Positions 34,149-54,370 of a stretch of 64,000 nt of DNA are shown here, one piece after another. Where the stretch lies: positions 1-64,000 of the forward strand of contig NZ_WTVN01000005.1 of NCBI RefSeq assembly GCF_012910905.1. The letters are read 5' to 3'. Both the position numbers and the translations under genes were made by a program. The notes below the pieces were generated by a model that searched no databases, had not been told where the DNA came from, and saw nothing but the letters and a program-made list of their open reading frames with translations. The stretch is from Aromatoleum toluvorans (GTDB lineage Bacteria > Pseudomonadota > Gammaproteobacteria > Burkholderiales > Rhodocyclaceae). The first letter of the stretch is position 1; each line of letters begins with the position of its first letter.

Positions 34149-34162
34149 GATGATATATCATC
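34149..34162. promoter_or_regulatory. Palindrome GATGATATATCATC upstream of the DUF485-actP operon
   Basis: A perfect 14-bp palindrome about 95 nt before the DUF485 start. Its TATATC can serve as the -10 box of that minus-strand operon, with ATGGTA 17 nt before it, so a protein bound here would block RNA polymerase. Confidence 0.42.
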
Positions 34163-34168
34163 TACAAG

Positions 34169-34192
34169 ACTCCATACCATGACGTATGGAGT
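34169..34192. promoter_or_regulatory. Inverted repeat TCCATAC-N6-GTATGGA (copy 1)
   Basis: The core is flanked by one more pair on each side (ACTCCATAC...GTATGGAGT, 9-bp arms, loop CATGAC), followed on the plus strand by a T-run at 34193-34198. It could fold as an intrinsic terminator, but no plus-strand gene lies upstream. An identical core stands at the same distance before the CoA-transferase gene at 54.3 kb, so I favour a regulator site between the divergent actP and enoyl-CoA hydratase-like genes. Confidence 0.55.
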
Positions 34193-34256
34193 TTTTTTAA
34201 TTAATTGATAAATTGAATTTTTCTACCATTTTCGAAGCGACGGACAAACCCCGGAC

Positions 34257-35039
34257 ATGAGCGGCGAGATACTCTTTTCCACCGACGGCGACATCGCCAC
34301 GCTGACCCTCTCCAACCCCGACAAGCTGAACGCGATCGACTCCGCAATGTGGGTCGCGCTGCGCGAAGCCTTCGAGCGCATCGCCGCCGATTCCGCGCTG
34401 CGCGGCGTGATCCTGCGCGGCGCGGGCGACAAGGCGTTCGCTGCGGGCGGCGACATCGAGGAATTTTTGACCGTGCGCGCGACTGTCGATGACGCCCTGC
34501 ACTACCACGACACGCTGGTCGCGGCGGCGCTGGACGCGATCCGTGCCTGCGCGATTCCCACGGTGGCGGCGATCCAGGGTGCCTGTGTCGGCGGCGGACT
34601 GGAGATCGCCGGCTGCTGCGACCTGCGCATCGCCGGCGAGTCGGCGCGCTTCGGCGCCCCGATCAACCGCCTGGGCTTCTCGATGTATCCGGGCGAGATG
34701 GCGGGCCTGCTGGAGCTCGTCGGCCCGGCGGTGCTGCTGGAGATCCTGCTCGAAGGGCGCATCCTCGACGCGCGCGAGGCGCTGCAGAAGGGCCTGCTGA
34801 CGCGCGTGACCGACGACGAGAAGGTGCTCGACGAAGCCCGCGCGAGCGCCGCGCGCATCGCCGCCGGCGCGCCACTGGTCGCGCGCTGGCACAAGCAGTG
34901 GGTGCACCGCCTGATGCGCGGCGGCGCCCTGGGCGAGGAAGAAAAGCGCGCCGCCTTCGACTTCCTCGCGACGAACGACTACAAGGAAGGCTTGGACGCC
35001 TTCTTCGCGAAGCGCAAGCCGGTATTCAAGGGGCGTTGA
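34257..35039 (+). CDS. Enoyl-CoA hydratase/isomerase family protein with an altered active site
   Basis: A 260-residue crotonase-fold protein. The CoA/oxyanion segments FAAGGDIEEF and ACVGGGLEIAGCCDLRIA are present, and the first catalytic Glu is kept (GGGLE, E116). The second one, in the PEI motif of true hydratases, is replaced (FGAPINRLGF, P135-I136), so water addition may not be the reaction; an isomerase, lyase or hydrolase are alternatives. The ATG lacks a strong ribosome site. It is divergent from the acetate permease operon and shares its control region. Confidence 0.82.
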   Translation: MSGEILFSTDGDIATLTLSNPDKLNAIDSAMWVALREAFERIAADSALRGVILRGAGDKAFAAGGDIEEFLTVRATVDDALHYHDTLVAAALDAIRACAIPTVAAIQGACVGGGLEIAGCCDLRIAGESARFGAPINRLGFSMYPGEMAGLLELVGPAVLLEILLEGRILDAREALQKGLLTRVTDDEKVLDEARASAARIAAGAPLVARWHKQWVHRLMRGGALGEEEKRAAFDFLATNDYKEGLDAFFAKRKPVFKGR

Positions 35040-35041
35040 CT

Positions 35042-35154
35042 CGTAGGGCGGATGAGCCGAAGGCGTTATCCGCCGGATGGGTTATGACGAAGGGCATTTG
35101 ATAGGCGTGACGTGGCACATGCGGCGGAAGGCGCTTCGCTTTTCCGCCCTACGG
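35042..35154. repeat. Dispersed inverted repeat, copy 4 (between echA-like gene and cobQ)
   Basis: Starts CGTAGGGCGGATGAGCCGAAGG, 2 nt after the stop of the crotonase-fold gene, and ends GCTTTTCCGCCCTACGG, 8 nt before the cobQ stop. It lies between convergent genes and may end both transcripts. Confidence 0.85.
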
Positions 35155-35162
35155 ATCAAGCG

Positions 35163-36629
35163 TCAAACGGCCCACGCCGCCGGCAACACCGCCGACAGAT
35201 CCAGGTTCGCCGCGACGCTGTCCGCCAGCCGATCAAGATCGGCCTCGCGCCGCGCCGCGAGATCGACCGTCTCGACCTCCCCCGCCCCGGCCCACGCGAG
35301 CAGCGCGGACAGCGCTTCCGGCGCATCGAACAGGCCGTGCAGGTAGGTGCCGAGGATCTGCCCGTCGGCCGACAGCGCGCCGTCGGGCCGGCCATCGGCG
35401 AAGTGCAGCGCGGGGCGGTCGAGCGCTGCGCCGCGGCTCACGCCCATGTGGATCTCGTAGCCCGTGACCGCGGCCGCGCCGGGCAGGCACAGTTCGCCGC
35501 GACGGTTCTCGAGCTGCTTTTCGGCCTCGAGGACGGTTTCCATGTCGAGCAGCCCCAAGCCCGCGACGGTGCTCGGCGCCCCTTCCAGCCCCTGCGGGTC
35601 GGCGAGCGCGGAGCCGAGCATCTGGAAGCCGCCGCAGACCCCCACCACCTTGCCGCCGTAGCGCAGATGGCGCTTGAGCGCGGGCTCCCAGCCCTGCGCG
35701 CGCAGCCAGGCGAGGTCCGCCTGCACGCTCTTGGAGCCGGGCAGCACGATCAGGTCGGCGGACGGGATCGCCTGGCCCGGTCCGACCCAGCGGAAATCGA
35801 CCTGCGGGTGCAGGCGCAGCGCGTCGAGGTCGGTGTGGTTCGAGATGCGCGGATAGACCGGCGCGACCACCCGCAGGCGCGCCTCGCCCTTGTCGACGCG
35901 GGCTTCGCCGAGCGCGTCCTCGGCGTCGAGGAAGAGGCCGTGCAGGTAGGGCAGCACGCCCAGCACCGGCCGGCCGGTGCGTTCTTCAAGCCAGTCCAGC
36001 CCCGACTGCAACAGGCCGATGTCGCCGCGGAAGCGGTTGATGACGAAGCCTTTCACGCGCGCCTGCTCGGACGGCGACAGCAGTTCCAGCGTGCCGACGA
36101 GATGCGCGAACACGCCGCCGCGGTCGATGTCGGCGACGAGGATCACCGGCACGTCGGCCGCTTCGGCAAAGCCCATGTTGGCGATGTCGCGATCGCGCAG
36201 GTTGATCTCCGCGGGGCTGCCAGCGCCTTCGACGAGCACGCAGTCGTAGGCGCTGGTGAGGCGGTCCCAGGACTGCATCACCGCCTTCATCGCGGTCGGC
36301 TTGTAGGCGTGGTAATCGCGTGCCGAGAGGTTCGCGGCGACCTTGCCATGGATGACGACCTGCGCGCCGATGTCGGTCGACGGCTTGAGCAGCACCGGAT
36401 TGAAGTCGGTGTGCGGCTGCAGCCCGGCGGCCAGCGCCTGCAGGGCCTGCGCACGGCCGATCTCGCCGCCATCGCTCGTCACCGCGGAATTGAGCGCCAT
36501 GTTCTGCGGCTTGAACGGCGCCACGCGCACGCCACGCCGCGCCAGCATGCGCGCGAGTCCCGCGACCAGCGTGCTCTTGCCCGCATCGGAGGTCGTTCCC
36601 TGCACCATCAGGGTGATTGCTTGCGGCAT
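35163..36629 (-). CDS. cobQ: Cobyric acid synthase
   Basis: A 488-residue amidotransferase that adds four amide groups from glutamine to adenosylcobyrinic acid a,c-diamide. The N-terminal P-loop domain begins [18 protein letters not shown] and has [12 protein letters not shown]. The C-terminal class I glutaminase-like domain has the nucleophile Cys in [10 protein letters not shown] and the late His in GTYLHGLFD. The ATG ([11 protein letters not shown]) is chosen over an upstream in-frame TTG. It is divergent from cbiB with a 57-nt gap and has no riboswitch of its own that I can see. Confidence 0.95.
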
Positions 36630-36686
36630 GGCGTAGAATCCCGGCTCGTTCAAAGTGGCGGATTATCGCCGATAAGCTTCGCGCCG

Positions 36687-37604
36687 ATGATTTCCCTGTT
36701 CATCAAACTCCTCGCCGGCATCGCCCTCGACCGTCTGCTCGGCGAGCCACGCCGCTGGCATCCGCTGGTCGGCTTCGGCCGCTGGGCCGGCTGGCTCGAA
36801 ACGCGCCTGCGCCCGCTGCTGCCGACCCGCGCGGGCGGGCTGCTGGCGTGGCTGCTGGCGATCGGGCCGTGGCTCGCGCTCGCGCTGTGGCTGCGCGCCA
36901 GCCATCCCGCCGCGCACTGGGTCGTCGACATCGGCCTGCTGTATTTCGCGCTCGGCGCGCGCAGCCTCGCGCAGCATGCCGAGGCGATCGCGGCACCGCT
37001 CGCGGCCGGCGACCTCGACGCGGCGCGCGAGCGCGTCGGCTGGATCGTCAGCCGCGATACGCGCGCGCTGGACGCGACCGGCGTCGCGAAGGCCGGCACC
37101 GAGTCGGTGCTTGAGAACGGCAACGATGCGGTCTTCGGCGCGCTGTTCTGGTTCTGCATCGCGGGCGGCGCCGGGGCGCTGGTGTTCCGCCTCGCCAACA
37201 CGCTCGACGCGATGTGGGGTTACCGCACCGAACGCTTCATCCGCTTCGGCTGGGCGGCGGCGCGCCTCGACGACGCGCTGAACTGGATCCCCGCGCGACT
37301 CACCGCGCTGACCTACACGCTGCTCGGCCGCAGCCGCGACGCGCTCGCATGCTGGCGCGAGCAGGCCCCCGCCTGGGACAGCCCCAACGCCGGGCCGGTG
37401 ATGGCGGCAGGCGCGGGTGCGCTCGGCGTCCGCCTCGGCGGTGCAGCGATCTACCACGGGCGCGAGGAACAGCGCCCGCCGCTCGGCTGCGGCAACGCGC
37501 CCGATGCCGCGAGCGTGCGCGCGGCGGTGCGCTTGCTGGAACGCGGCATGCTGCTGTGGCTGGGCATCGTGGCCGCCGGCGCGCTGCTCGCAGGCATCGC
37601 ATGA
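36687..37604 (+). CDS. cbiB: Adenosylcobinamide-phosphate synthase CbiB
   Basis: A 305-residue inner-membrane protein with several hydrophobic segments that joins adenosylcobyric acid to aminopropanol (phosphate). Family segments are [42 protein letters not shown] and [21 protein letters not shown]. It is called CobD in some aerobic-pathway naming. It is followed after 18 nt by the threonine-phosphate decarboxylase gene, which supplies the aminopropanol part. Confidence 0.93.
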
Positions 37605-37622
37605 GCTTCGCCGGGGACGCAC

Positions 37623-38606
37623 ATGCTTGAGCACGGCGGACGCCTGCGCCGCGCGGCGCAACAATACGGCATCCCGCTCGCCGACTGGCTGGACCTGTCG
37701 ACCGGGATCAATCCGCACGCGTGGCCCGTCCCGCCCGTTCCGGGCGCCGCGTGGCACCGTCTGCCGGAGGATGATGACGGGCTGGAGGGCGCCGCCGCGG
37801 CCTACTACGGCACCGACCAGCTGCTGCCGGTCGCCGGCTCGCAACCGGCGATCCAGGCCCTGCCGGCGCTGATCCCGGGCGAGCGCGTGACCGTGCTCGC
37901 GCCGACCTACGCCGAGCATCCTCACGCCTGGCGCGGCCGCAGGCTGCGCGCGCTCGCCGCCGACGCCGTCGATGCGGCGATCGACGACACCGACGTGCTG
38001 CTCCTCGTGCATCCCAACAACCCGTCCGGGGCACGCTTTGCGCGCGAGAAGCTGCTCGACTGGCACGCGCGCCTCGCGGCCCGTGGCGGCTGGCTGGTGG
38101 TCGACGAAGCCTTCATCGATGCGGCGCCGGCCGAAAGTCTCGCGTCGGCCGCCGGGCGGCCGAACCTCGTGGTCCTGCGCTCGCTCGGCAAGTTCTTCGG
38201 CCTCGCCGGCGCGCGCGTCGGCTTCGTGCTCGCCCCGGCGGAACTGCGCGCACGCCTCGCCGACCTGCTGGGCCCGTGGACACTCAGCGGCCCGGCGCGC
38301 CATGTCGCGCGCGCGGCGCTCACCGACCGCGGGTGGCAGGACGCGATGCGCGCCCGCCTGGAAGGCGAAGCGGCACGCCTCGCCGCCCTGCTGCGCCACG
38401 GCGGCCTCGGCGAACCCGCCGGGCCGGCGCTGTTCCAGTGGGTGCGGCATGCGGATGCCCCCACCGTGCAGGACCACCTCGCGCGCGCCGGCATCCTCGT
38501 GCGCCGTTTCGACGCACCGGCCAGCCTGCGCTTCGGCCTGCCGCCCGACGAAACCGGCTGGGAGCGCCTCGCCGCGGCGCTCGACACCTTGCGCCCACGC
38601 GCCTGA
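37623..38606 (+). CDS. cobD: Threonine-phosphate decarboxylase (PLP enzyme, CobD/CobC type)
   Basis: A 327-residue class I/II aminotransferase-fold enzyme giving (R)-1-amino-2-propanol phosphate for the cobalamin lower loop. It has LDLSTGINPHAWP, VHPNNPSGARF, the DEAFID segment and the PLP-lysine region LVVLRSLGKFFGLAGARVGF. The pathway partner CbiB is encoded immediately upstream, and the stop is 1 nt before the next gene. In aerobic-pathway naming this would be cobC. Confidence 0.92.
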   Translation: MLEHGGRLRRAAQQYGIPLADWLDLSTGINPHAWPVPPVPGAAWHRLPEDDDGLEGAAAAYYGTDQLLPVAGSQPAIQALPALIPGERVTVLAPTYAEHPHAWRGRRLRALAADAVDAAIDDTDVLLLVHPNNPSGARFAREKLLDWHARLAARGGWLVVDEAFIDAAPAESLASAAGRPNLVVLRSLGKFFGLAGARVGFVLAPAELRARLADLLGPWTLSGPARHVARAALTDRGWQDAMRARLEGEAARLAALLRHGGLGEPAGPALFQWVRHADAPTVQDHLARAGILVRRFDAPASLRFGLPPDETGWERLAAALDTLRPRA

Positions 38607-38607
38607 C

Positions 38608-39558
38608 ATGCAGCTCGACCACCACGTCAACACCATCGGGCGCCACCTGCGTGCACGCTTCGGCGAGCGCGTGCACAAGCTGCCGCTGCACGCGAACTTC
38701 ACCTGCCCGAACCGCGACGGCACGCTCGGACGCGGTGGCTGCACCTTCTGCAACGTGCGCGCGTTCAGCGACGAAGCCGAAGCGCCGATCGCTCAGCAGC
38801 TCGACACCGGGCGCGTGCGCACCGACCGCGCGCGCCGCTACCTCGCCTACTTCCAGGCCTACACCAGCACTTACGCGGAAGTGGCGACGCTGCAGCGGCT
38901 GTATGAGGAGGCCCTCGCGGGCGCCGACATCGTCGGACTGTGCGTCGGCACGCGCCCCGACTGCGTGCCCGACGCCGCGCTGGATCTCCTCGCCGGCTAC
39001 CACGAGCGCGGCTACGAAGTGTGGCTGGAACTGGGCCTGCAGAGCGCCTTCGACGACACCCTCGCGCGCGTCAATCGCGGTCACGGCTTCGCCGCCTACG
39101 CCGACGCGGTGGCGCGCGCCCGTGCCCGCGGGATTCCCGTGTGCACGCACCTCATCGTCGGCCTGCCGGGCGAGTCGCCCGAGCGCAGCCTCGACACGCT
39201 CGAGCGCGTGCTCGAATGCGGCGTCGCGGGGCTGAAACTGCATCCGCTGATGATCGTCAAGGGCAGCCGGCTCGCCGCCGCGTGGCGCCGCGGCGAGATC
39301 GCGCCGCCGGACGCCGCCCGCTACGCCGACGTCGCCGCCGAGATGATCCGCCGCACGCCCGCGAACGTCGTGTACCACCGCGTCTCGGCCACCGCCAACG
39401 CGCCGACCCTGCTCGCGCCGGCCTGGTGCGCGTCACGCTTCGAAGGCATCCACGCGATCGCCCGCCGGCTTGCCGCGACCGGCCCGCAGGGCAGCCTCAC
39501 GGCGCAGCCGCTCGGCCCCCCGCTCCCTTTTTCCCGCGAACACCGCGCCCCTGCCTGA
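38608..39558 (+). CDS. Radical SAM protein of the YhcC/TIGR01212 type
   Basis: A 316-residue predicted [4Fe-4S] radical SAM enzyme. The cluster motif is spread as FTCPNRDGTLGRGGCTFCN, which is usual for this family in place of the tight CxxxCxxC. Later segments YFQAYTSTYA, GTRPDCVPD and LELGLQSAFDDTL are characteristic. Its substrate is unknown in general. It lies between cobD and btuF with 1-nt gaps on both sides, so it is co-transcribed with cobalamin genes, but a role in B12 metabolism is not shown. Confidence 0.87.
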   Translation: MQLDHHVNTIGRHLRARFGERVHKLPLHANFTCPNRDGTLGRGGCTFCNVRAFSDEAEAPIAQQLDTGRVRTDRARRYLAYFQAYTSTYAEVATLQRLYEEALAGADIVGLCVGTRPDCVPDAALDLLAGYHERGYEVWLELGLQSAFDDTLARVNRGHGFAAYADAVARARARGIPVCTHLIVGLPGESPERSLDTLERVLECGVAGLKLHPLMIVKGSRLAAAWRRGEIAPPDAARYADVAAEMIRRTPANVVYHRVSATANAPTLLAPAWCASRFEGIHAIARRLAATGPQGSLTAQPLGPPLPFSREHRAPA

Positions 39559-39559
39559 C

Positions 39560-40486
39560 ATGCCCACGCCCCTCCGCCTGTACCCCCGGTTCGGTGCCCT
39601 CTGCTGCGCGCTCTCGATCGCCGCAAGCCTGTTCATTGCAGTCCCTGCCCAGGCCGAGCTGCTGATGCGCGACGACACCGGCCACGAACTGCGGCTCGCG
39701 CGACCCGCCGAACGCATCGTCAGCCTCGCACCGCACGTCACCGAGCTGCTGTATGCCGCCGGCGCCGGCGCGCGCGTCGTCGGCGCCGTCGCCTACAGCG
39801 ACTTTCCCGAAGCCGCACGCAAGCTGCCGCGCGTCGGCGGCTACAGCAACGTGGATATGGAGGCCATCGCCGCGCTCAAGCCCGATCTGGTGATCGCCTG
39901 GAAGAGCGGCAACCGCGATGCGCACCTCGACAAGCTCGCGGCGCTCGGCATCCCCGTCTACATGAACGAACCGCGCAGCCTGGACGACGTCGCGCACAGC
40001 CTGGAAAACATCGGCCGGCTGGCCGGAACGGACAAGTCAGCCCGCGCCGCGGCCGATGCCTTCCGCGCCCGCAAGGCGGCGCTCGCCGAACGCTACAGCC
40101 AGCGGCCGCGCGTGCGCATGTTCTACCAGATCTGGGACAAGCCGCTGATGACGATCAACGACGAGCACCTCATCTCGGACGTGATCCGGCTGTGCGGCGG
40201 GGAAAACGTGTTCGGCCGACTGAGCCAGCTCGCGCCGACGATCGGCGTGGAGAGCGTGCTCGCGGCCGATCCGGAAGCGATCGTCGCCAGCGGCATGGGC
40301 GAGGCGCGCCCGGATTGGCTCGATCACTGGAAGCGCTGGCCGAAGCTGGCGGCCGTTGCGCGCGACAACCTGTACTTCGTCCCGCCGGAGCTGATCCAGC
40401 GCCACACGCCGCGCATCCTCGACGGCGCGACGATGCTGTGCGAACAGCTGGAAGAGGCGCGCCGCAAGCGCCGCGGCGCGAAGTGA
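39560..40486 (+). CDS. btuF: Periplasmic cobalamin-binding protein (BtuF-like)
   Basis: A 308-residue class III solute-binding protein with a signal peptide (ALSIAASLFIAVPAQA). The ERIVSLAPHVTELLYAAGAG start, the YSDFPEAARKLPRVGGYSNVDMEAIAALKPDLV region and the long backbone helix are typical of BtuF. Given its position among cobalamin genes, the ligand is probably vitamin B12 or cobinamide, though iron-siderophore binding proteins share the fold. The BtuC and BtuD transporter genes are not in the window. Confidence 0.86.
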   Translation: MPTPLRLYPRFGALCCALSIAASLFIAVPAQAELLMRDDTGHELRLARPAERIVSLAPHVTELLYAAGAGARVVGAVAYSDFPEAARKLPRVGGYSNVDMEAIAALKPDLVIAWKSGNRDAHLDKLAALGIPVYMNEPRSLDDVAHSLENIGRLAGTDKSARAAADAFRARKAALAERYSQRPRVRMFYQIWDKPLMTINDEHLISDVIRLCGGENVFGRLSQLAPTIGVESVLAADPEAIVASGMGEARPDWLDHWKRWPKLAAVARDNLYFVPPELIQRHTPRILDGATMLCEQLEEARRKRRGAK

Positions 40487-40496
40487 CGCGGCGAAC

Positions 40497-41630
40497 TCAG
40501 GCGCGGCGCGCACGCTCGTAGCGGCGGCGCCAGTCGCGCCGGGAGTCCTGCCACCACGCGCGGTCGAAGACCCACGACAGCGTCGGCAGGATGGGGCCGA
40601 GATGCGTCGTCGCCAGCGACTCGCCGCCGCACACCGGCACGGCCGGATCGACGCGCAGCACGCGCAGCCGGTCCGCCAGGGTCGGGTGGAAGTCCGCGGT
40701 CGACGCGGTGCCGCCGAACATGTCGCGAATGTCGACCGGGCCGGGTTCCGGGCGGCGGAAGCCGGCCATCACCCCGAGGCCCATCTCGCGGAACGGACGG
40801 ACCAGCGGCTGCGGCGCCGTACGGCTTTGCTCCATGATCTTGCGCCAGTAATCCTCGTTGAGGAAACGCTCCTTCAGCGCGACCTCGACGAGCGCTTCGC
40901 CGACGCGCTGCGCCCCGACGACGTGCGCTGCGCCCGCGTCCGCCTCGAATTCCTCCAGCCGCGACAGGCGCATCGCCGCGCGCAGGTCGCCCGCAGACCA
41001 GCGCTCGAGCATGCCGCCCAGGCGCGGCATGTCTTCGATGCAGCGATCGAGCGCGCGGAACCACCACGCGCGCAGGTGCCCCCACCATGCATGCAAGCCC
41101 TGGCGCTGCGCCGCGAGGTGGGCAAATTCGTGCGCGAGGATGGCGCCGAACTGGCGCCGTGAGACGCTGTGGGCGAGCGGCAGTCCGATCATCAGGTGGG
41201 TTTCGAGCGGCCCGACCCAGCCCCAGCGCGGGCGCTGCAGGATCGCGGCGTTCATGTCGCCGACCACCCACACGGCGTCGATGCGGATGCCGCCGAAACG
41301 CTTGCCCATCCTGTCCACGAGGCCGAACAGTTCTTCCGCGAGCTCGCGCGGCAGCCGGACGCCGTCCGGCTTCGCCGTCGGTGCAAGAAGCCAGCCGAGG
41401 ATCAACGCACACGCGGCAAGCGCGACGAGGAAACTGACCACCGCCGCCACGGCGTGGGCGACGTCGCCGTCGACGAGCGCCGCCCAGGTCCAGCCGACCA
41501 GCAGCACCGCCGCCGTGCCGAGGACGGCGGCGAGCAGCGTCATCGTCGAAAGGCCGATCGCAGCGCGCAGCCCGAGTGTGCGGGCGAGGCGTGCGCGGGT
41601 GCGCGAGAGGCGGGTCGGGACGGCTGCCAT
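40497..41630 (-). CDS. M48-family zinc metallopeptidase with membrane helices
   Basis: A 377-residue membrane peptidase. Two hydrophobic segments (about residues 22-55 and 58-83) precede the HtpX/Ste24-like domain with HEFAH (167-171), and EEFEADAGAA provides the third zinc ligand. The long C-terminal part is soluble. AGCGGAG lies before the ATG at 41630; an ATG 24 nt upstream is also in frame. It converges with btuF, only 10 nt away. Substrate unknown; relatives act in membrane-protein quality control. Confidence 0.82.
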   Translation of the reverse strand: MAAVPTRLSRTRARLARTLGLRAAIGLSTMTLLAAVLGTAAVLLVGWTWAALVDGDVAHAVAAVVSFLVALAACALILGWLLAPTAKPDGVRLPRELAEELFGLVDRMGKRFGGIRIDAVWVVGDMNAAILQRPRWGWVGPLETHLMIGLPLAHSVSRRQFGAILAHEFAHLAAQRQGLHAWWGHLRAWWFRALDRCIEDMPRLGGMLERWSAGDLRAAMRLSRLEEFEADAGAAHVVGAQRVGEALVEVALKERFLNEDYWRKIMEQSRTAPQPLVRPFREMGLGVMAGFRRPEPGPVDIRDMFGGTASTADFHPTLADRLRVLRVDPAVPVCGGESLATTHLGPILPTLSWVFDRAWWQDSRRDWRRRYERARRA

Positions 41631-41956: not shown

Positions 41957-43483
<1,527 letters not shown>

Positions 43484-43505
43484 GCATCAGCGCGGCCGGC
43501 GCGGC

Positions 43506-44225: not shown

Positions 44226-44384
44226 ATCCGCCAGCATAACCGGATCCGCATCGCGGCGGAACGCGGCCTGCATACGCCGGAATAATCGCGCGACCTGCCC
44301 GGTCGGCAAGCGGCTGGCAAATGACGCAACGGGCACTTGCGTTGCACCGGAAGCTTCGCCTATCCTCTGCGTGTTTCGATCCGG
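44226..44384. promoter_or_regulatory. Divergent control region of rquA and the cobalamin operon
   Basis: The 159-nt stretch between the RquA-like start and the riboswitch must hold both promoters. I see no unambiguous -35/-10 pair and no gene. Confidence 0.4.
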
Positions 44385-44611
44385 GTTCCCCGCCGTGCGA
44401 CCGCGCGACGGGGTGAAACGGGAAGTCCGGTGACGTCCGGGAGCACACGCTTCCGACCAGTCCGGCGCAGCCCCCGCTGCTGTAAGCCTGACGGATCCGC
44501 CACACGCCACTGAGCCTTGCGCTCGGGAAGGCGGCGGAATCCGGGAGAAGGCAAGCCAGAAGACCGGCCCGATCGATTTGGTAGGTTTGTGCCTCGGGGT
44601 GAGGGCTTGCC
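44385..44611 (+). ncRNA. Cobalamin (AdoCbl) riboswitch
   Basis: Conserved blocks occur in order: GGGTGAAACGGGAAGTCCGG (44411-44430), GCAGCCCCCGCTGCTGTAAGC (44467-44487) and the B12 box AAGCCAGAAGACCGGCC (44553-44569). This matches the class I cobalamin riboswitch. GGCAAGCC (44550-44557), touching the B12 box, is complementary to GGCTTGCC (44604-44611), a possible alternative helix for switching. About 150 nt follow before the cobM start. Binding of adenosylcobalamin should reduce expression of the corrin operon. Outer boundaries are approximate. Confidence 0.95.
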
Positions 44612-46543: not shown

Positions 46544-46547
46544 AACC

Positions 46548-47234
46548 ATGAACAGCAACGTCGTCACCGAACAGCTCACCGCCGCCGGACGCGCGATCGA
46601 GCACGATTCCTTCGCGATCATCGACGCCGAGGTCGGCCGTCACGACTACCGGCCGGAGCAATGGCCGATCGTGCGTCGCATGATCCACGCGAACGCGGAC
46701 TTCGAATTCAACGGCCTCACCGACTTCCACGCGGACGCGGTCGCGGCGGGCCTCGCGGCGATCCTCGCCGGCGGCACGCGCGTCGTCGCGGACGTCGAGA
46801 TGATCTGCGTCGGGTTGTCGGCGTCGCGCCTCGCGCACTTCGGCATCACGACCCACCAGTTCATCTCGGACGCGGACGTGATCGAGCAGGCGAAGGCCGA
46901 GGAGACCACGCGCGCCGTGCAGGCGATGCGCAAGGCTCACCGCCAGGGCCTGCTCGACGGCGCGATCGTCGGCATCGGCAACGCGCCGACGGCGCTGATC
47001 GAGGTCGTGCGCCTGATCCGCGAGGAAGGCGCGCGCCCGGCACTGGTGATCGGCATGCCGGTCGGCTTCGTGTCGGCGGCCGAGTCGAAGGATCTGATGG
47101 CTGAAGTCGCGGACGTGCCGTGGATCGTGATCCGCGGCCGCAAGGGCGGCTCGACGCTGGTCGTCGCGGCGATCCACGCGCTGCTGGGTATCGCCGAAGC
47201 GCGCCAGCGCGAACAGCAGGCGTCGGCAGCCTAA
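46548..47234 (+). CDS. cobH: Precorrin-8X/cobalt-precorrin-8 methylmutase
   Basis: A 228-residue enzyme moving a methyl group from C11 to C12 (CobH/CbiC). The catalytic His is in the RRMIHANADFEF segment (H47), and GGTRVVADVEMICVGLS and IGNAPTALIEVVRLI are family segments. It is 4 nt after cbiX. Confidence 0.94.
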   Translation: MNSNVVTEQLTAAGRAIEHDSFAIIDAEVGRHDYRPEQWPIVRRMIHANADFEFNGLTDFHADAVAAGLAAILAGGTRVVADVEMICVGLSASRLAHFGITTHQFISDADVIEQAKAEETTRAVQAMRKAHRQGLLDGAIVGIGNAPTALIEVVRLIREEGARPALVIGMPVGFVSAAESKDLMAEVADVPWIVIRGRKGGSTLVVAAIHALLGIAEARQREQQASAA

Positions 47235-47255
47235 ACCAGCAACCAACGGAGTCGA

Positions 47256-48422
47256 ATGATGGCAGCGGGCCACGCGGTGCCGGAGAAAGTGCGCAAGGGC
47301 GACGCGAAGCGCGAGCGCGGAAATCGCTCGGGTTTCACGACCGGCGCGAACTCGGCCGCCGCGGCGACTGCGGCGACCCTCGGCCTCGTGCACGGCGAAG
47401 TCCCCACCGAGATCGAGTGCGTGCTGCCGAACACGACGCATGTGACTTTCCGCATCACCGACGGGCGCGTCGAGGACGACTGCGCGCACGCGGTGAGCAT
47501 CAAGGACGCGGGCGACGACCCGGACGCGACCGACAAGGCGCATCTGACCGTCGACGTGCGCCGCATCCGCGACGGCAGCGGCGAGGTGATCCTGAAGGGC
47601 GGGCCGGGCGTGGGCGTGGTCACGAAACCGGGCCTCGGGCTCGACGTCGGCGGCCCCGCGATCAACCCGGTGCCGCGCAAGAACATCTGCGAGAACGTCG
47701 CGCGCGCCGGTGCCGAAATACTGGCCACGGGCGACAGCCTGGAGGTGACCATCTCGGTGCCCGGCGGCGAGGAGATGGCGAAGAAGACGCTCAATGCGCG
47801 CCTCGGCATCCTCGGCGGGATCAGCATCCTCGGCACCACCGGCATCGTGCGCCCGTTTTCCACCGCGGCCTGGCGGGCGAGCGTGGTGCAGGCGATCGAA
47901 GTCGCCGCCGCCCAGGGGCAGACCACGGTGGTGCTGACCACCGGCGGGCGCACCGAGAAGGGCGCGATGCGCGTGTTTCCCGAACTCGACGAAGCCTGTT
48001 TCGTCGAGTTCGGGGACTTCGTCAAGGCCGCCTTCACCGCCGCGGTAAAGCTGGGCATGCGCCACATCGTGCTCGGCGCGATGGTCGGCAAGCTGACCAA
48101 GATCGCGCAGGGCCTGTCGGTGACGCACGCGTGGCGCGCGGAAATCGACCGCACGCTGATCGCCGACGCCGCGATCGAAGCGGGCGCGCCGGAGGAGATC
48201 GTGGAGCAGATCCGCGCCGCCGAGACCGCGCGCTTCGCCGCCGAAAGCCTCGCCGAACTGGGGCTCACCGTGCCCTTCCACCGCGCACTGGCGCTGCGCG
48301 CGGTCCGTACCCTGCGCGAACGCTACCCCGGCCCGTACCGCCTGACCGTCCTCGCGTTCAACTTCGAAGGCGTGCCCATCGTCACCGTGGAGGAATCCGA
48401 ATGTCCGACCATCGCTGCCTGA
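47256..48422 (+). CDS. cbiD: Cobalt-precorrin-5B C1-methyltransferase CbiD
   Basis: A 388-residue enzyme of the anaerobic corrin pathway, unrelated to the CobM-type methyltransferases. It has RSGFTTGANSAAAATAA near the start, GPAINPVPRKNI, NARLGILGGISILGTTGIVRPFS and the GGRTEKGAMRVFPELDEACFVEFGDF region. CbiD replaces CobF, which again supports early cobalt insertion. Two ATGs (47256, 47259) follow GGAG. The 3' end overlaps cobL by 22 nt. Confidence 0.94.
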   Translation: MMAAGHAVPEKVRKGDAKRERGNRSGFTTGANSAAAATAATLGLVHGEVPTEIECVLPNTTHVTFRITDGRVEDDCAHAVSIKDAGDDPDATDKAHLTVDVRRIRDGSGEVILKGGPGVGVVTKPGLGLDVGGPAINPVPRKNICENVARAGAEILATGDSLEVTISVPGGEEMAKKTLNARLGILGGISILGTTGIVRPFSTAAWRASVVQAIEVAAAQGQTTVVLTTGGRTEKGAMRVFPELDEACFVEFGDFVKAAFTAAVKLGMRHIVLGAMVGKLTKIAQGLSVTHAWRAEIDRTLIADAAIEAGAPEEIVEQIRAAETARFAAESLAELGLTVPFHRALALRAVRTLRERYPGPYRLTVLAFNFEGVPIVTVEESECPTIAA

Positions 48423-49708
48423 TCCTGGGCATTCTCGACGACGGCTGGGAGGGGCTTTCCGCCGCCGGCCGCGCACGCCTTGCCGCGAGCCGCGTGGTGA
48501 TCGGCGCGCGCCGCACGCTGGACCTCGTCGCGCCGCATCTGGGCAGCGAGATCGAACTGCGCGACATGGACGGCGCCCTCGGCAAGACGCCCGAATGGGT
48601 GCGCGCCGCGCTCGCCGACCATCTGCCGGTGACCTTGCTCGCGACCGGCGACCCGCTGTGCCACGGCATCGCACGCTTCCTCGTCGACAAGCTCGGCGCG
48701 GCGTGCGTGGAAGTGCTTCCGGCGCCGTCGACGGTCGCGCTCGCCTGTGCGCGGCTCAACAAGACCTGGCAGGACGCGGCGATCCGCTCCTGCCACGGCG
48801 CGGATGCCGGCGAATGGTTCGACGGCGCCGCACCCGGCCACGGCCTTTACGCCATCGTGCGGGCAGTCGCCGAACAGACTCGCGTCGCCGCCTTCACGAG
48901 CCCCGCGAACAGCCCGGACCGCGTCGCGCGGGCGCTGCTGGCTGCGGGCTACGGCGACGACGTGCGCATCTCGGTCGCGGCGCGCCTGTGCCTGCCTGAC
49001 GAAGCGCTCTTCGCCGACCTGACGCTTGCGGAGGCGGCCGCGCGACGCTTCCCCGATCCGAACATCGTCGTCATCGACCGTGCACCAGCGCCCTCCCCGC
49101 GCGCCGTGTTCGGCTTCGAGGATTCCGACTTCGTGCAGCGCCAGCCCGAGAAGGGGCTGATCACCAAGCTCGAAGCGCGCGCCGTGTCGCTCGCGAAGCT
49201 GGGGCTACGCAGCGACAGCCTCGTCTGGGACATCGGCGCGGGCTCGGGCTCGGTCGGACTGGAAGCCTCGCGCATCGCCCGCGCGGGCCACGTCTGGGCG
49301 ATCGAAAAGAACACCGGCGACGCCGCCAATGCGCGCGAGAACGCCCGCCGCCTGCAGGCGACGAACTACACGCTGGTCGAGGGCAAGGCGCCCGACGGCC
49401 TCGACGCCTGGCCCGATCCGGACGCCGTGTTCATCGGCGGTTCGGGCGGCGAGCTCGCGGGCCTGATCGAGCTGATTCTCGCGCGTCTGCGACCCTCCGG
49501 CCGCCTCGTGATGAACTTCGTCACGATCGAGAACCTCGCGACCGCGACCGCCGCGCTCGCTGCCGCCGGTGCCCAATGGGACGTGACGATGCTGTCGGCC
49601 GCGCGCAGCCAGCCGATCCTCGACATGCACCGGCTGGCCGCGCAAAACCCGGTGTGGATCGTCACCGCGTACAAGAACACTCCCCAAGCAGAGAACAACA
49701 ATGAATGA
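48401..49708 (+). CDS. cobL: Precorrin-6Y C5,15-methyltransferase (decarboxylating), CbiE-CbiT fusion
   Basis: A 435-residue fusion. The N-terminal CbiE-like part (about 1-200) methylates C5, and the C-terminal Rossmann-type CbiT-like part (about 235-435) methylates C15 with decarboxylation; its motif I is VWDIGAGSGSVGLEAS. The fused form equals CobL. Start and stop overlap cbiD by 22 nt and cobI by 8 nt. Confidence 0.94.
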   Translation: MSDHRCLILGILDDGWEGLSAAGRARLAASRVVIGARRTLDLVAPHLGSEIELRDMDGALGKTPEWVRAALADHLPVTLLATGDPLCHGIARFLVDKLGAACVEVLPAPSTVALACARLNKTWQDAAIRSCHGADAGEWFDGAAPGHGLYAIVRAVAEQTRVAAFTSPANSPDRVARALLAAGYGDDVRISVAARLCLPDEALFADLTLAEAAARRFPDPNIVVIDRAPAPSPRAVFGFEDSDFVQRQPEKGLITKLEARAVSLAKLGLRSDSLVWDIGAGSGSVGLEASRIARAGHVWAIEKNTGDAANARENARRLQATNYTLVEGKAPDGLDAWPDPDAVFIGGSGGELAGLIELILARLRPSGRLVMNFVTIENLATATAALAAAGAQWDVTMLSAARSQPILDMHRLAAQNPVWIVTAYKNTPQAENNNE

Positions 49709-50510
49709 CGCTCTCCCCACGCCCCGCTACGGCCGCCTGATCGGCGTGTCGCTCGGCCCCGGCGATCCCGACCTGATCACGCGCCGCGGCTGGACCGCGC
49801 TACAGTCGGACGCACGCTGGACCTATCCGGTGAAGAAGGCCGAGGAACGCTCCTACGCGCTCGACATCGTCGTGCGCGCCGGCCTGGCCGTGCCGGCCGA
49901 CGCGGTCGAACTGGTGTTCCCGATGACGCGCGACGCGGTGGCGCTGGCGAAAGCCTGGGCGCGCGCGGCGGCCCGCACCGCCGAACTCCTCGCCGAAGGG
50001 CGCGACGTCGCCTTCCTCGTCGAGGGCGACGCCTCGACCTACTCGACCTTCCGCCACCTCGCCCGCGCCGTGCGCGAGCTCGCGCCCGAAGTCGAAGTCG
50101 AGACCATCCCCGGCGTGAGCTCCTTCGCCGCCGCGGCCGCCTGCGCCGACCTCGCGCTCGCCGAGGAAGACGAAACGGTCGCGGTGATCCCGGCCGCCTA
50201 CGGCGTGTCGGTGATCGACCACCTCCTCGACGAATTCGACACGCTGGTGCTGATGAAGGTGAAGCCGCTGATGGACGAGATCCTCGACCTCCTCGAAGCG
50301 CGCGACCTCGTCGCGACGAGCTGCTTCGTCGAGAAGGTCGGCTCACCCGAGGAGCGCGTCGTCAAGGACGTCGCGAGCCTGCGCGGCGAGAAGGTCAATT
50401 ACCTGTCGCTGCTGCTGGTGCAGAACCCCAAGCGCGCGCGCGGCGAGCTGCGGCGCGGCTGCCGCAAGCGCGCGGCGGCGGCCGAGGCAACGACGGAAGC
50501 TGCAGCATGA
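49701..50510 (+). CDS. cobI: Precorrin-2/cobalt-factor II C20-methyltransferase
   Basis: A 269-residue uroporphyrin-type methyltransferase (CobI/CbiL). SAM site GVSLGPGDPDLITRRGW, ARWTYPVKKAEERSYALDIV, VAFLVEGDASTYSTFRHLARAV and TIPGVSSFAAAAA. The C-terminal 25 residues are Arg/Ala-rich and longer than usual. The stop overlaps cbiG (ATGA). Confidence 0.93.
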   Translation: MNDALPTPRYGRLIGVSLGPGDPDLITRRGWTALQSDARWTYPVKKAEERSYALDIVVRAGLAVPADAVELVFPMTRDAVALAKAWARAAARTAELLAEGRDVAFLVEGDASTYSTFRHLARAVRELAPEVEVETIPGVSSFAAAAACADLALAEEDETVAVIPAAYGVSVIDHLLDEFDTLVLMKVKPLMDEILDLLEARDLVATSCFVEKVGSPEERVVKDVASLRGEKVNYLSLLLVQNPKRARGELRRGCRKRAAAAEATTEAAA

Positions 50511-51280
50511 GCGCGCAACTGCCCTTCCCCAACGAACGCGTCGCGGTCGTCTCGATCACGAAGCACGGCATCGCGCTCGCCGGCCGCGTCGTCGCGGCGA
50601 TCCCCGGCGCCCGGCTGTTCGCGCCGGAGAAGTTCCGCGCCGAAGCCGAAGCCGCCGCGCCCGGCGCCGCCGCCTGCTACACCGGCAAGACCGGCGACCA
50701 GATCCCGGCGCTCTTCGCGGGCTTCGACGGCATCGTCGCGATCGTCTCGCTCGGCGCCGTCGTGCGCCTGATCGCGCCGCACCTGAAGGCCAAGGAACAG
50801 GACCCCGGCATCGTCGTGCTGGATGAAGGCGCCCGCTACGCGATCCCGATGCTGTCCGGCCACCTCGGCGGCGCCAACGCGCTCGCGGGCGTGCTCGCCG
50901 CGGCGCTCGGCGCCCAGGCGGTGCTCACGACCGCGTCCGACGCGCGCGAGACGCTCGCCGTCGACCTCCTCGGCCGCGAACTCGGCTGGACCTTCGACGC
51001 GAGCCACGACGAGATCGTGCGCGCGAGCGCCGCGGTCGTGAACGACGAACCCGTCGCCCTCGTGCAGGAAGCCGGCAGCGGCGACTGGTGGGCGCGTCAC
51101 GCCAACGGCCGCAGCGGTCCGCTGCCCGCGAACCTCAAGCGCTTCGAGCGCCTCGAGGACGTCGATCCGGACCAGTTCGGTGCCGTGCTGTGGATCAGCC
51201 AGCGTGATCTGCCCGCCGGCTGGAGCGAACGTCTCGCCGGCCGCCGCGTGATCTACCGCCCGCCGCAGGAGGCAGCGTGA
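50507..51280 (+). CDS. cbiG: Cobalt-precorrin-5A hydrolase CbiG (N-terminal and central part)
   Basis: A 257-residue protein that opens the lactone of cobalt-precorrin-5A. N-terminal AVVSITKHGIALAGRVVAAIPG and central IVSLGAVVRLIAPHLKAKEQDPGIVVLDEG, SGHLGGANALAGVLAAALGA are CbiG signatures. The C-terminal CobE-like domain of full-length CbiG is absent here and encoded by the next gene, overlapping by 4 nt (GTGA). Confidence 0.92.
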   Translation: MSAQLPFPNERVAVVSITKHGIALAGRVVAAIPGARLFAPEKFRAEAEAAAPGAAACYTGKTGDQIPALFAGFDGIVAIVSLGAVVRLIAPHLKAKEQDPGIVVLDEGARYAIPMLSGHLGGANALAGVLAAALGAQAVLTTASDARETLAVDLLGRELGWTFDASHDEIVRASAAVVNDEPVALVQEAGSGDWWARHANGRSGPLPANLKRFERLEDVDPDQFGAVLWISQRDLPAGWSERLAGRRVIYRPPQEAA

Positions 51281-51693
51281 CGGCCTCCCCCGGTCCCGTC
51301 GCCCTCGGCCTCGGCTGCGACCGCGGCACGCCCGCGCAGACGATCGCGCGCGCGATCGACGAGGCCCTCGCCCAGGCGGGTGCGAGCCTCGCCGACGTGT
51401 GCGCGGTCGCGAGCATCGATCTCAAGGCCGACGAAGCCGGATTGCTCGACGTCGCCTCGCGGCGCGGCTGGACCATCGCCTTCCACCCCGCGGCGACGCT
51501 CGCGGCCGTGCCCGTGCCGAACCCGTCGGAGACGGTGCGCCGCTACACCGGCACGCCCTCGGTGTCGGAAGCCGCAGCCCTGATCGCAGCCGGCACGGAC
51601 CGCACGCAACTCGTCGTCGAAAAGCACAAGCTGCGCGGCCCGGACGGCCGCAACGCAACGGTGTCGGTCGCCCGCATGCCGGCATCCCACTGA
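51277..51693 (+). CDS. cobE: CobE/CbiG C-terminal domain protein
   Basis: A 138-residue protein equal to the C-terminal part of CbiG or to stand-alone CobE: GLGCDRGTPAQTIARAIDEAL, VASIDLKADEAGLLDVA, YTGTPSVSEAAALIAAG and LVVEKHKLRG. It uses a GTG start overlapping the cbiG stop. A small overlap in different frames shows a natural split and not a recent frameshift, though only comparison would prove it. Confidence 0.91.
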   Translation: MTASPGPVALGLGCDRGTPAQTIARAIDEALAQAGASLADVCAVASIDLKADEAGLLDVASRRGWTIAFHPAATLAAVPVPNPSETVRRYTGTPSVSEAAALIAAGTDRTQLVVEKHKLRGPDGRNATVSVARMPASH

Positions 51694-51733
51694 GTTTCAC
51701 ACCCTGTCACACCATCAAAAAAGGAGAACCACC

Positions 51734-51919
51734 ATGCAGCAACAAGCCACCCTGCAAATCGCCCGCCCGAAAAGCGCCCTGCTGGCGATCGCGATGCCCG
51801 TCCTCACCGCCGTGCTGCTCGGCGCCGTGATCGTCTACGGCGTCGGCTTCAGCCACATCGCCGCGGCCCACAACGCCGCGCACGACACGCGTCACTCCAA
51901 CGTCTTCCCCTGCCACTGA
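51734..51919 (+). CDS. cbtB: Cobalt transporter subunit CbtB
   Basis: A 61-residue protein with one transmembrane helix (LLAIAMPVLTAVLLGAVIVYG) and a His-rich C-terminus ending HSNVFPCH, matching CbtB of predicted B12-regulated cobalt transport. AAGGAG precedes the ATG. CbtA follows 14 nt later. Confidence 0.88.
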   Translation: MQQQATLQIARPKSALLAIAMPVLTAVLLGAVIVYGVGFSHIAAAHNAAHDTRHSNVFPCH

Positions 51920-51933
51920 GCCCGGAGCCCGAC

Positions 51934-52722
51934 ATGCTGTTCCGCCGCATCGTCCTGTGCGCCCTGTTCGTCGGGGTGCTCGCCGGCCTGCTCGTGAGTG
52001 CCGTGCAGCACTGGCAGGTCATCCCGATCATCGCCGCCGCGGAAGTGTTCGAAGGCTCGGCCGAAGGTGCCGAAGCCGCCGAGCCTGCTGCCACGATGGC
52101 TCATGATCACGACCATGGCGCCGCCCATGTCCATGACGAAGCAGCCTGGGAACCCGAAGACGGCACGGAGCGGCATGTCTGGACCTTGATCGCCAACGTG
52201 CTGACCGCGATCGGCTTCAGCCTCGTGCTGATCGCCGCGATCACGACCTGGGAACACCTGCGCGGCGGCCGCGTCGCCTCGGCGCGCAGCGGCCTCGTGT
52301 GGGGCGCCGCCGCTTGGCTGTGCGTCTTCGCTGCGCCCTCGCTGGGCCTGCCGCCCGAGATCCCCGGCACCGCCGCAGCCGCCCTCGACGCGCGCCAGAC
52401 CTGGTGGCTCATCGCCGTCCTCTGCTCCGCGACCGGCCTCAGCGTCCTCGCCTTCGTCCCCGGCCGCCTGCGCTGGCTCGGCATCGCCCTGCTGGCCCTG
52501 CCCTACGCGCTCGGCGCACCGCATATCGACGGTGCCTTCGCCGCCTACAGCGACGAAGTGGCACGCCAGATGGAAGTTCTGACCGGCCAGTTCGCCATCG
52601 CCACCGCAATCTCCAGCGCGATCGAATGGCTTGCCCTTGGCAGCCTCGCCGGCTGGGCGGTCGCCCGCTGGGTGCGCCCGGCGCTCGCGACGCTGGGAAC
52701 CCCGGCCACCGCCCGCGCGTAG
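51934..52722 (+). CDS. cbtA: Cobalt transporter subunit CbtA
   Basis: A 262-residue membrane protein with about five to six hydrophobic segments and a His/Asp-rich loop after the first helix (AHDHDHGAAHVHDEAAWEPE), consistent with CbtA. The pair CbtAB is a predicted cobalt importer under B12 control. GGAG precedes the ATG. Its TAG stop is supplied by the first bases of a dispersed repeat (CGTAGGGCGG). Confidence 0.88.
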   Translation: MLFRRIVLCALFVGVLAGLLVSAVQHWQVIPIIAAAEVFEGSAEGAEAAEPAATMAHDHDHGAAHVHDEAAWEPEDGTERHVWTLIANVLTAIGFSLVLIAAITTWEHLRGGRVASARSGLVWGAAAWLCVFAAPSLGLPPEIPGTAAAALDARQTWWLIAVLCSATGLSVLAFVPGRLRWLGIALLALPYALGAPHIDGAFAAYSDEVARQMEVLTGQFAIATAISSAIEWLALGSLAGWAVARWVRPALATLGTPATARA

Positions 52723-52857
52723 GGCGGAAGAGCGAAGCGCCTTCCGCCGCATGGATAGTCATCGACGACACATGCGGCGGATAAGGCTCCTGCACCACAT
52801 TTGACACGCGACCGTCGGCCACCCGGCGGAAAACGGCGGGATTTCATCCCGCCCTAC
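52718..52857. repeat. Dispersed inverted repeat, copy 5 (between cbtA and cobJ)
   Basis: Starts CGTAGGGCGGAAGAGCGAAG, where the TAG is the cbtA stop, and contains CATGCGGCGGATAAGGCTCC. A second hairpin GGCGGGAT-TTC-ATCCCGCC ends in CTACG at 52857, 23 nt before cobJ. It lies inside the corrin operon and so may partly separate cobJ from the upstream genes. Confidence 0.8.
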
Positions 52858-52880
52858 GCCCTCAACACAGAGAGAACACC

Positions 52881-53846
52881 ATGAGCACAGGCAAGATCAT
52901 GCTCGTCGGGCTCGGCCCCGGCAGCGTCGAGCACATGAGCGGCCGCGCCCGCGCCGCGATCGCCGAAGCCGACACCATCATCGGCTACGTCACCTACATC
53001 CGCCTCGTCGCCGACCTCGTCGAAGGCAAGGAAGTCGTCAAGAAGTCGATGACCGAGGAACTCGACCGCGCGATCGAGGCGCTCGACCGCGCCCGGCAGG
53101 GCAAGAAGGTCGCGCTGATCTCGTCGGGCGATGCGGGCGTCTACGGCATGGCCGGTCCGACCTTCGAAGTGCTGTTCCAGGCCGGGTGGACCCCGGACTC
53201 GGACATCGAAGTCGAGATCATTCCCGGCGCTTCCGCGCTCAACACCTGCGCGGCACTGGTCGGCGCCCCGCTGACGCACGATTTCTGCGCGATCTCGCTC
53301 TCCGACCTGCTGACGCCGTGGCCGGCCATCGCGCGCCGCCTCAACGCCGCCGCCGCCGCCGACTTCGTCGTCGCACTGTACAACCCCAAGAGCGGCCGCC
53401 GCGCGCGCCAGATCGTCGAAGCGCAGCGCCTCTTCCTCGCGCACCGCCGCCCCGACACGCCCGTCGCGATCGTGAAGTCCGCCTACCGCCCCAAGCAGCG
53501 CATCGAGTTCACGACCCTCGACAAGATGACCGAGTGCGACATCGGCATGCTGAGCACCGTGCTGATCGGCAACTCCAACACCTTCGTGCGCGACGGCCTG
53601 ATGGTCACGCCGCGCGGCTACGCGAACAAGTACGACGTCGAGTCGGGCTCCACCCGTGACGGCGAAAAAGCCGGCCGCTCGCTGTCGACCGGCCTCAACG
53701 GCTGGCTCGAAAGCCTGCGCGAAAGCGGCGAGAGCGCCGAGGAGCTCGCCCGCCGTTACGCGCTGCCGGTCGACTACATCACCGCGGCACTCGCCGACGA
53801 GGTCGTCGAAGACGACACCGCCGACGAAGGCGAAGCGCTCGCATGA
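52881..53846 (+). CDS. cobJ: Precorrin-3B/cobalt-factor III C17-methyltransferase
   Basis: A 321-residue ring-contracting methyltransferase (CobJ/CbiH). SAM site MLVGLGPGSVEHMSGRA; TIIGYVTYIRLV, ISSGDAGVYGMAGP, IPGASALNTCAALVGAPLTHDFCAISLSDLL and VALYNPKSGRR follow. A C-terminal extension of about 70 residues after the enzyme domain is helical and charged. It overlaps the ferredoxin gene by 4 nt. Confidence 0.94.
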   Translation: MSTGKIMLVGLGPGSVEHMSGRARAAIAEADTIIGYVTYIRLVADLVEGKEVVKKSMTEELDRAIEALDRARQGKKVALISSGDAGVYGMAGPTFEVLFQAGWTPDSDIEVEIIPGASALNTCAALVGAPLTHDFCAISLSDLLTPWPAIARRLNAAAAADFVVALYNPKSGRRARQIVEAQRLFLAHRRPDTPVAIVKSAYRPKQRIEFTTLDKMTECDIGMLSTVLIGNSNTFVRDGLMVTPRGYANKYDVESGSTRDGEKAGRSLSTGLNGWLESLRESGESAEELARRYALPVDYITAALADEVVEDDTADEGEALA

Positions 53847-54232
53847 GCGCCCCCGCGGATATCCCACCGCGATCGGAGGGTAGTCCGGTGGGCGACGCCA
53901 CAAAGCCGAAACTCGGCAGCTACCGCCGCCACCTGCTGGTGTGCACCGGACCGCGCTGCACGCAGAACGGCGAAGCGCAGGCGCTCTTCGACAGCCTCGG
54001 CGAGACCTTCAAGGCTGCCGGTCTCGACCAGGGCGAACTGCGCGTCAAGCGTACCCGCGTGTCCTGCTTCGCCGCCTGCAAGGGCGGCCCGATCGTCTGC
54101 ATTCAACCCGATGGCATCTGGTACTACAATGCCATTCGGGAGAACATGCAGCGCATCGTCGATCAGCACCTCGTTGGCGGGCAACCGGTCGAGGAACTGG
54201 TTTTCCACCGCGGCCCCTCCGCGCCCTGCTGA
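53843..54232 (+). CDS. (2Fe-2S) thioredoxin-fold ferredoxin of the cobalamin operon
   Basis: A 129-residue protein with the four cysteines of a thioredoxin-like [2Fe-2S] ferredoxin: HLLVCTGPRCTQNG, then SCFAACKGGPIVC, with extra Cys nearby. Such proteins are often encoded next to cobalt-corrin genes and may donate electrons, for example to the ring-contraction step or cobalt reduction. Overlap with cobJ supports a linked function. A 9-bp hairpin follows the stop. Confidence 0.86.
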   Translation: MSAPADIPPRSEGSPVGDATKPKLGSYRRHLLVCTGPRCTQNGEAQALFDSLGETFKAAGLDQGELRVKRTRVSCFAACKGGPIVCIQPDGIWYYNAIRENMQRIVDQHLVGGQPVEELVFHRGPSAPC

Positions 54233-54237
54233 ACGCC

Positions 54238-54259
54238 GGCTCCGCCCATAGGCGGAGCC
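54238..54259 (+). terminator. Hairpin at the end of the corrin operon
   Basis: GGCTCCGCC-CATA-GGCGGAGCC, a perfect 9-bp stem 5 nt after the ferredoxin stop. It lacks a T-tract, so termination may be incomplete or Rho-assisted. Confidence 0.5.
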
Positions 54260-54270
54260 AATCGAATCTC

Positions 54271-54310
54271 CCATACGCATCCGTACGTTTTCCATACGCA
54301 TCAGTATGGA
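54271..54310. promoter_or_regulatory. Inverted repeat TCCATAC-N6-GTATGGA (copy 2) with a related half site
   Basis: 54291-54310 carries the same 7-bp arms and the same 6-nt spacing as the site at 34171-34190, with a different spacer (GCATCA). 54271-54288 (CCATACGCATCCGTACGT) is a weaker relative 21 nt upstream. The pair ends 60 nt before the start of the CoA-transferase gene, in the expected promoter region. Confidence 0.6.
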
Positions 54311-54370
54311 CGCGAGTATCATCGCGCCCGAATCGATTCATAGATAGTCGAAGTCAGGGAGAGGAAGGAC

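Follow-up and report, generated by a model that had tools for sequence, protein, structure and literature searches.

Two identical palindromes in a 64,000-nt stretch of the Aromatoleum toluvorans genome (bases 1–64000 of contig C73, here called the window; the genome is 4.80 Mb in 117 contigs) appear to be operators of one autoregulated TetR repressor of short-chain acyl-CoA oxidation, the product of gene P0001 on another contig, C44. We give this reading, which is drawn from sequence comparison, a probability of about 0.86, and related bacteria seem to share the switch. Anaerobic breakdown of aromatic compounds and hydrocarbons is studied in the model genera Aromatoleum, Azoarcus and Thauera, and its pathways end in acyl-CoA oxidation. 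A regulator of this common lower part was named neither in the literature searched nor in the portions available to us of two Aromatoleum papers (PMC9795900, PMC9765128). We also found no description of the motif or its regulator in that literature, which was queried with few motif spellings and leaves most subscription journals outside. With a motif, a regulator gene and a list of targets at hand, control of the lower pathway becomes directly testable.

A palindrome shared by acyl-CoA genes across the genome

The two window palindromes, numbered here as putative operators 1 and 2, both read TCCATAC-N6-GTATGGA: their 7-nt arms are the same, and the 6-nt gap holds unrelated spacers (CATGAC and GCATCA). 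The palindromes lie 66 and 60 nt, respectively, before plus-strand genes for a crotonase-fold protein and a CoA-transferase. Gene starts are approximate, having come from a home-made gene caller; the CoA-transferase was called at 54404 and we used the ATG at 54371 instead. A weaker copy, CCCATACGCATCCGTACGTT, adjoins the second palindrome. All of this agrees with the original prediction, as does the lack of a regulator beside either site: the crotonase, actP and CoA-transferase genes are non-regulators by profile, and the small genes at 33733–34041 and 53888–54232 stood outside the profile search.

The same prediction expected a genome-wide search to place the motif mainly beside acyl-CoA genes, and this was the outcome. 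With up to two mismatches, TCCATACN6GTATGGA occurs at 11 sites in the whole genome, versus 1 for the reversed control; seven flank acyl-CoA, electron-transfer-flavoprotein (ETF) or tetR genes (both window sites counted), one precedes an MFS transporter gene, and three are intragenic. The exact form CATACN6GTATG has seven genome sites, all of them intergenic and all flanking acyl-CoA or ETF genes. The target gene families were verified against Pfam and NCBIfam. When one mismatch was allowed in this looser pattern, 30 sites were found versus 14 for the control, so about half of that set is noise. Outside the window, we inspected 16 regions with 18 sites, among which six weaker sites are intragenic and probably represent noise.

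Eighty sites (≤3 mismatches) gave the consensus [T]CCATAC-G-N4-C-GTATGG[A]; since these sites were picked by pattern similarity, the arms of the logo are biased toward the pattern, and the spacer positions are unbiased. Neighbouring sites are 20–24, 30–31 or 50–51 bp apart.

The palindrome co-occurs with a TetR gene

The expected regulator class, TetR, was borne out by a gene beside three sites on C44. P0001 (C44:26465–27073) encodes 203 amino acids, in which both an N-terminal TetR_N helix-turn-helix domain and the TetR fold were found, and is divergent from etfB-etfA-acyl-CoA dehydrogenase. Three copies of the palindrome lie between etfBA and tetR, the third of which contains the tetR ATG, so that by sequence the candidate operator is present at tetR itself as well as at the target genes. 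The closest named relatives by TetR protein are from Azoarcus sp. Aa7 and Aromatoleum species, with 95–96% identity (among the best 80 of 95 matches).

Among 101 genomes of the family, including this one, 61 have a strong tetR orthologue (E ≤ 3.4e-50; TetR+ genomes). Exact CCATACN6GTATGG was found in 50 of these 61 versus 3 of the 40 lacking a strong orthologue (Fisher p = 3e-14, a value that overstates independence, the genomes of one family being related). The total of exact sites against the control pattern was 99 versus 2 in TetR+ genomes and 3 versus 3 in the other 40.

The palindrome also adjoins the tetR gene itself. A site with up to two mismatches lies upstream of tetR in 29 of the 30 best orthologues (from 85 genomes with a match), where dinucleotide shuffles lead one to expect 0.02. 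It likewise precedes tetR in all 46 named orthologues that are 71% or more identical; of nine weaker named homologues, eight had no such site and one had a site 174 nt off, in a scan covering 55 of the 79 named loci. For TetR homologues with 35–48% identity from other families of the class, a site adjoins the gene in 7 of 8 loci. At one of these seven (L249), and in a genome of the same family (G313, locus L355), the site is located just past the 3′ end of tetR rather than before it. G302 and G313, distant genomes with several sites that we checked as counter-examples, each carry a 34–38% TetR homologue beside a site; other class genomes with the motif mostly have one site each. An Azospirillum TetR homologue (53%) has one site with two mismatches, and for a Pseudomonas plasmid homologue (33%) no site was detected at up to two mismatches. 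Homologues of P0001 at E ≤ 1e-25 were present in 8 of 273 sampled class genomes besides the window's own. Fold searches with the TetR protein matched very many TetR proteins and gave no pointer to the ligand.

Targets in the window

Coordinates of the window features and of the exact sites elsewhere in the genome are collected in Table 1.

Table 1. Candidate operators, promoter-like elements and genes in the window (numbered from its first base), and exact CATACN6GTATG sites on other contigs
Feature	Position	Strand	Basis or remark
Putative operator 1, TCCATACCATGACGTATGGA	34171..34190	.	Exact palindrome within the actP/crotonase divergent intergenic region
Putative operator 2, TCCATACGCATCAGTATGGA	54291..54310	.	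Exact palindrome
Putative degenerate tandem operator	54270..54289	.	Four mismatches, 21 bp from operator 2; genome G044 has one too
actP-like cation/acetate symporter gene	32057..33733	-	NCBIfam NF009135 and NF006903, above cut-off
Small membrane protein gene, DUF485-type (presumed), first in the minus-strand operon, upstream of actP	33733..34041	-	Gene call and relatives
Crotonase-fold (enoyl-CoA hydratase family) gene	34257..35039	+	NCBIfam enoyl-CoA hydratases, best match below cut-off
Perfect palindrome GATGATATATCATC	34149..34162	.	-10-like TATCAT on each strand: 34150–34155 (minus), 34156–34161 (plus)
Terminator-like hairpin with T-run, coincident with operator 1	34166..34198	+	Stem/loop search and folding
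CoA-transferase gene, related to butyryl-CoA:acetate CoA-transferase	54371..55666	+	TIGR03948, E 1.4e-93, below equivalog cut-off
-10-like TATCAT of the putative CoA-transferase promoter	54317..54322	+	Hexamer position after the operator
Exact site	C35		Acyl-CoA dehydrogenase-thiolase-AMP ligase operon; AraC-type gene on the opposite side
Two exact sites and a third with one mismatch	C44		etfBA-acyl-CoA dehydrogenase and tetR
Exact site	C27		3-Hydroxybutyryl-CoA dehydrogenase
Exact site	C51		Thioesterase/ETF-ubiquinone oxidoreductase divergon

At the CoA-transferase, the site (≤2 mismatches) was detected in 11 of 24 loci, against 0.02 in shuffles. These 24 are the first of 30 loci, the remainder being a partial copy and homologues with 37–41% identity. 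TATAAT or a hexamer one base off starts 5–7 nt past the site in 10 of the 11 genomes, and the putative operator would therefore cover the -35 region of the CoA-transferase promoter. A second CoA-transferase gene of the window (57078–58589) is of the ScpC/YgfH type (succinyl-CoA:acetate CoA-transferase); in G026 and G086, an operator match with two mismatches lies about 190–200 nt upstream of the homologous gene (84% identical).

Operator 1 (≤2 mismatches) is kept in 9 of 30 crotonase loci, the best of 62 genomes with a match, and equally in 9 of 30 loci of the presumed DUF485-type gene (best of 54). Of the nine crotonase genes with a site, eight are transcribed divergently from actP-type genes and the ninth from a different gene. 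The 21 loci without it comprise 13 in which the crotonase stands behind a GntR gene, three actP divergons, and others with different or no called neighbours. Since two genomes (G020 and G081) keep the site before the DUF485-type gene and actP (73% identical) with no crotonase neighbour, operator 1 is assigned first to the actP promoter. The original proposal for this site thus stands for acetate uptake, which is probably what the operator serves first, through the minus-strand actP promoter; the crotonase gene, on which the proposal also relied, is probably an additional or incidental target.

For GATGATATATCATC, the palindrome beside operator 1, a role in a promoter is more likely than one as a GntR operator. 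Its half TATATCAT is present on the actP side, 13–15 nt past the operator, in all nine DUF485-type loci that carry operator 1, and also on the actP side in the nine such crotonase loci. It is possibly a symmetric -10 element shared by the two divergent promoters, and the crotonase promoter may use it as well. We considered GATGATATATCATC as a shared GntR operator and disfavoured this, as there is no other occurrence in the window at up to three mismatches and the copy in Table 1 is the only genome occurrence of its 12-mer core at up to one mismatch.

In 13 of the 30 crotonase loci, the crotonase gene directly follows an orthologue of the window's GntR gene (7738–8409), and two of these have a homologue of the gene at 5175–7334 beyond it, which by our reading encodes methylmalonyl-CoA mutase. 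Judged by this neighbourhood, the crotonase may act in propionyl/methylmalonyl-CoA metabolism and not in beta-oxidation.

Proposed mode of action

The motif census and the co-occurrence with TetR, from which we infer binding, support the original idea of one TetR-like regulator over acetate uptake and CoA genes. Its scope held for the acetate genes and proved wider, taking in etfBA-acyl-CoA dehydrogenase, ETF-ubiquinone oxidoreductase/thioesterase, 3-hydroxybutyryl-CoA dehydrogenase and the acyl-CoA dehydrogenase-thiolase-ligase operon.

A TetR dimer would bind each CCATAC-N6-GTATGG, and where operators stand in tandem, spaced by about 21 and 30 bp, the dimers would sit on the same side of the helix. 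Ahead of the CoA-transferase gene, the bound operator would lie over the -35 region and be followed closely by the -10-like hexamer. In the divergon at 34.2 kb, should the TATCAT pair supply the -10 elements, operator 1 would lie over the -35 region of actP and near the transcription start of the crotonase gene. Without inducer, acetate uptake and the acyl-CoA/ETF target genes would be repressed and tetR would regulate itself. An acyl-CoA arising from the use of fatty acids or acetate probably releases the repressor, so that acetate uptake and fatty-acid breakdown would be switched on together.

A broader proposal is that TetR proteins of one subfamily, marked by the recognition helix VT[KR]GSFYWHF, pair with CCATAC-N6-GTATGG across several lineages of proteobacteria. 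The member in Rhodocyclaceae-type bacteria would be a master repressor under which acetate uptake, CoA transfer and beta-oxidation are tied together with the ETF branch to the quinone pool, as an undescribed counterpart of FadR and PsrA. We lean toward this proposal only slightly.

Alternative explanations and known systems

Several observations weigh against the one-repressor reading. Besides the three intragenic sites among the 11 of its own genome, 11 of the 61 TetR+ genomes are without exact CCATACN6GTATGG. Among the loci scanned in TetR+ genomes, those without a site number 20 of 29 for the crotonase and 11 of 22 for the CoA-transferase, and both targets are therefore lineage-specific. 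The actP-crotonase divergons of G003, G012 and G062 have no site either. Finally, no convincing -35 hexamer was seen by eye near the operators, which makes activation instead of repression formally possible.

That the palindrome recurs by chance was called unlikely in the original prediction. From the window alone the coincidence is suggestive, not decisive: shuffles of the window gave a mean of 0.54 matches at up to three mismatches and at least two matches in 10 of 100 cases, and the first-order Markov estimate of 1e-5 for the two exact matches is post hoc, because perfect 7-N6-7 inverted repeats, whatever their sequence, number 21 in the window. It is the enrichment genome-wide and across genomes that refutes chance, to which we assign a negligible probability. 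The prediction also named a case that would overturn it, in which the 34.2-kb copy is solely an intrinsic terminator or attenuator hairpin of the plus strand. A GC-bearing hairpin with a T-run is indeed present (12-pair stem, 6-nt loop, -15.7 kcal/mol, z -4.3). Conservation of the T-run along with the hairpin, as expected of a terminator, was not observed: it is kept in only 4 of 9 orthologous crotonase sites (scored by eye as six or more T no further than 2 nt from the palindrome), whereas the 14 arm bases are conserved and equal the genome-wide operator. Moreover, the hairpin is located between divergent genes with no upstream plus-strand gene to terminate, the 54.3-kb site has no T-run, and two genomes keep a site of the 34.2-kb type before actP without the crotonase gene. 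We regard a role as terminator or attenuator alone as very unlikely. Hairpin formation is not the cause of the sequence conservation at 34.2 kb; it may dampen crotonase transcription in this genus.

Could the sites be operators of a different regulator, such as the product of the GntR gene at 7738–8409 or an MbdR-like TetR protein? The GntR orthologue is a frequent crotonase neighbour, yet none of the 13 crotonase loci that it precedes has the site, and none of the nine site-bearing loci has this GntR neighbour. MbdR, the TetR repressor of 3-methylbenzoate degradation in Azoarcus sp. CIB, is induced by an acyl-CoA, 3-methylbenzoyl-CoA. According to the part of its description available to us (PMC4424350), it resembles the present system in protein family, related host, ATAC/GTAT half-sites, several operators and sites overlapping promoters. 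Its operator, ATACN10GTAT, has 10 nt between the half-sites rather than the 6 found here, and this difference in spacing excludes identity of its operator with the present motif. MbdR also serves a local aromatic cluster instead of a scattered acyl-CoA regulon, and structural alignment of P0001 with 4uds gave 10% identity. As the motif tracks the C44 TetR across genomes and adjoins its gene, another regulator seems hardly probable.

A TetR regulator encoded by P0001 could still be one that already bears a name in another lineage. Fatty acid degradation in betaproteobacteria has a TetR-family regulator, FadP, reported for Ralstonia, Burkholderia and Comamonadaceae in the portion of the source consulted (PMC5343134). 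In silico the present system likewise pairs a TetR-family protein with candidate sites at genes of fatty acid degradation. The lineages differ; P0001 homologues are as rare in the class as stated above, and no title among the 79 named loci refers to Ralstonia, Burkholderia or Comamonadaceae, which is weak evidence, the query having been six short peptides and the loci the best 80 of 95 matches. We consider equivalence with FadP unlikely, if less so than the other alternatives. The TetR-type FadR of the distant organism Thermus thermophilus has among its candidate targets an acyl-CoA dehydrogenase (named there as an acetyl-coenzyme A dehydrogenase) along with etfBA, as here, and differs in its 15-bp consensus, TTRNACYNRGTNYAA, in the part of that report available (PMC5597230). 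PA3973 of P. aeruginosa was rejected as an equivalent since its motif, as given in the section seen of PMC9736018, is different.

Sites at other genes in related genomes

We hand-picked 39 further site regions from the listed matches, a chosen set rather than a census. The genes facing these sites encode 3-hydroxybutyryl-CoA dehydrogenase in 13 regions and the ETF-ubiquinone oxidoreductase/thioesterase divergon in four. One or two regions each face bioB, an SDR dehydrogenase, a thiolase-like gene, a ScpC-type CoA-transferase, other crotonases, an MFS gene or DUF485-actP. In the remainder, two sites are intragenic, in four regions no gene that faces the site starts within 400 nt of it, and several have unrelated genes.

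A degenerate site, CCCATACGGTAAGGTACGTT (L036:6214–6233), lies 5′ of bioB, and better sites precede bioB-like genes in G020 and G081, hinting that biotin synthesis may be part of the regulon. The site at L014:9759–9778 is 5′ of a gene that resembles a transporter (MFS as judged by eye; NCBIfam gave no match), and the 92% identical orthologue in G044 has one before it as well. In G302, which belongs to another family, a site (L353:3385–3404) precedes a thiolase-like gene, behind which comes a FadB-like gene; two other sites in this genome adjoin its 34% TetR homologue. Elsewhere in the window, a cobalamin riboswitch (Rfam RF00174, 106 bits) is located at 44365–44586, and the plus-strand genes from 44763 onward resemble, by eye, those of cobalamin biosynthesis.

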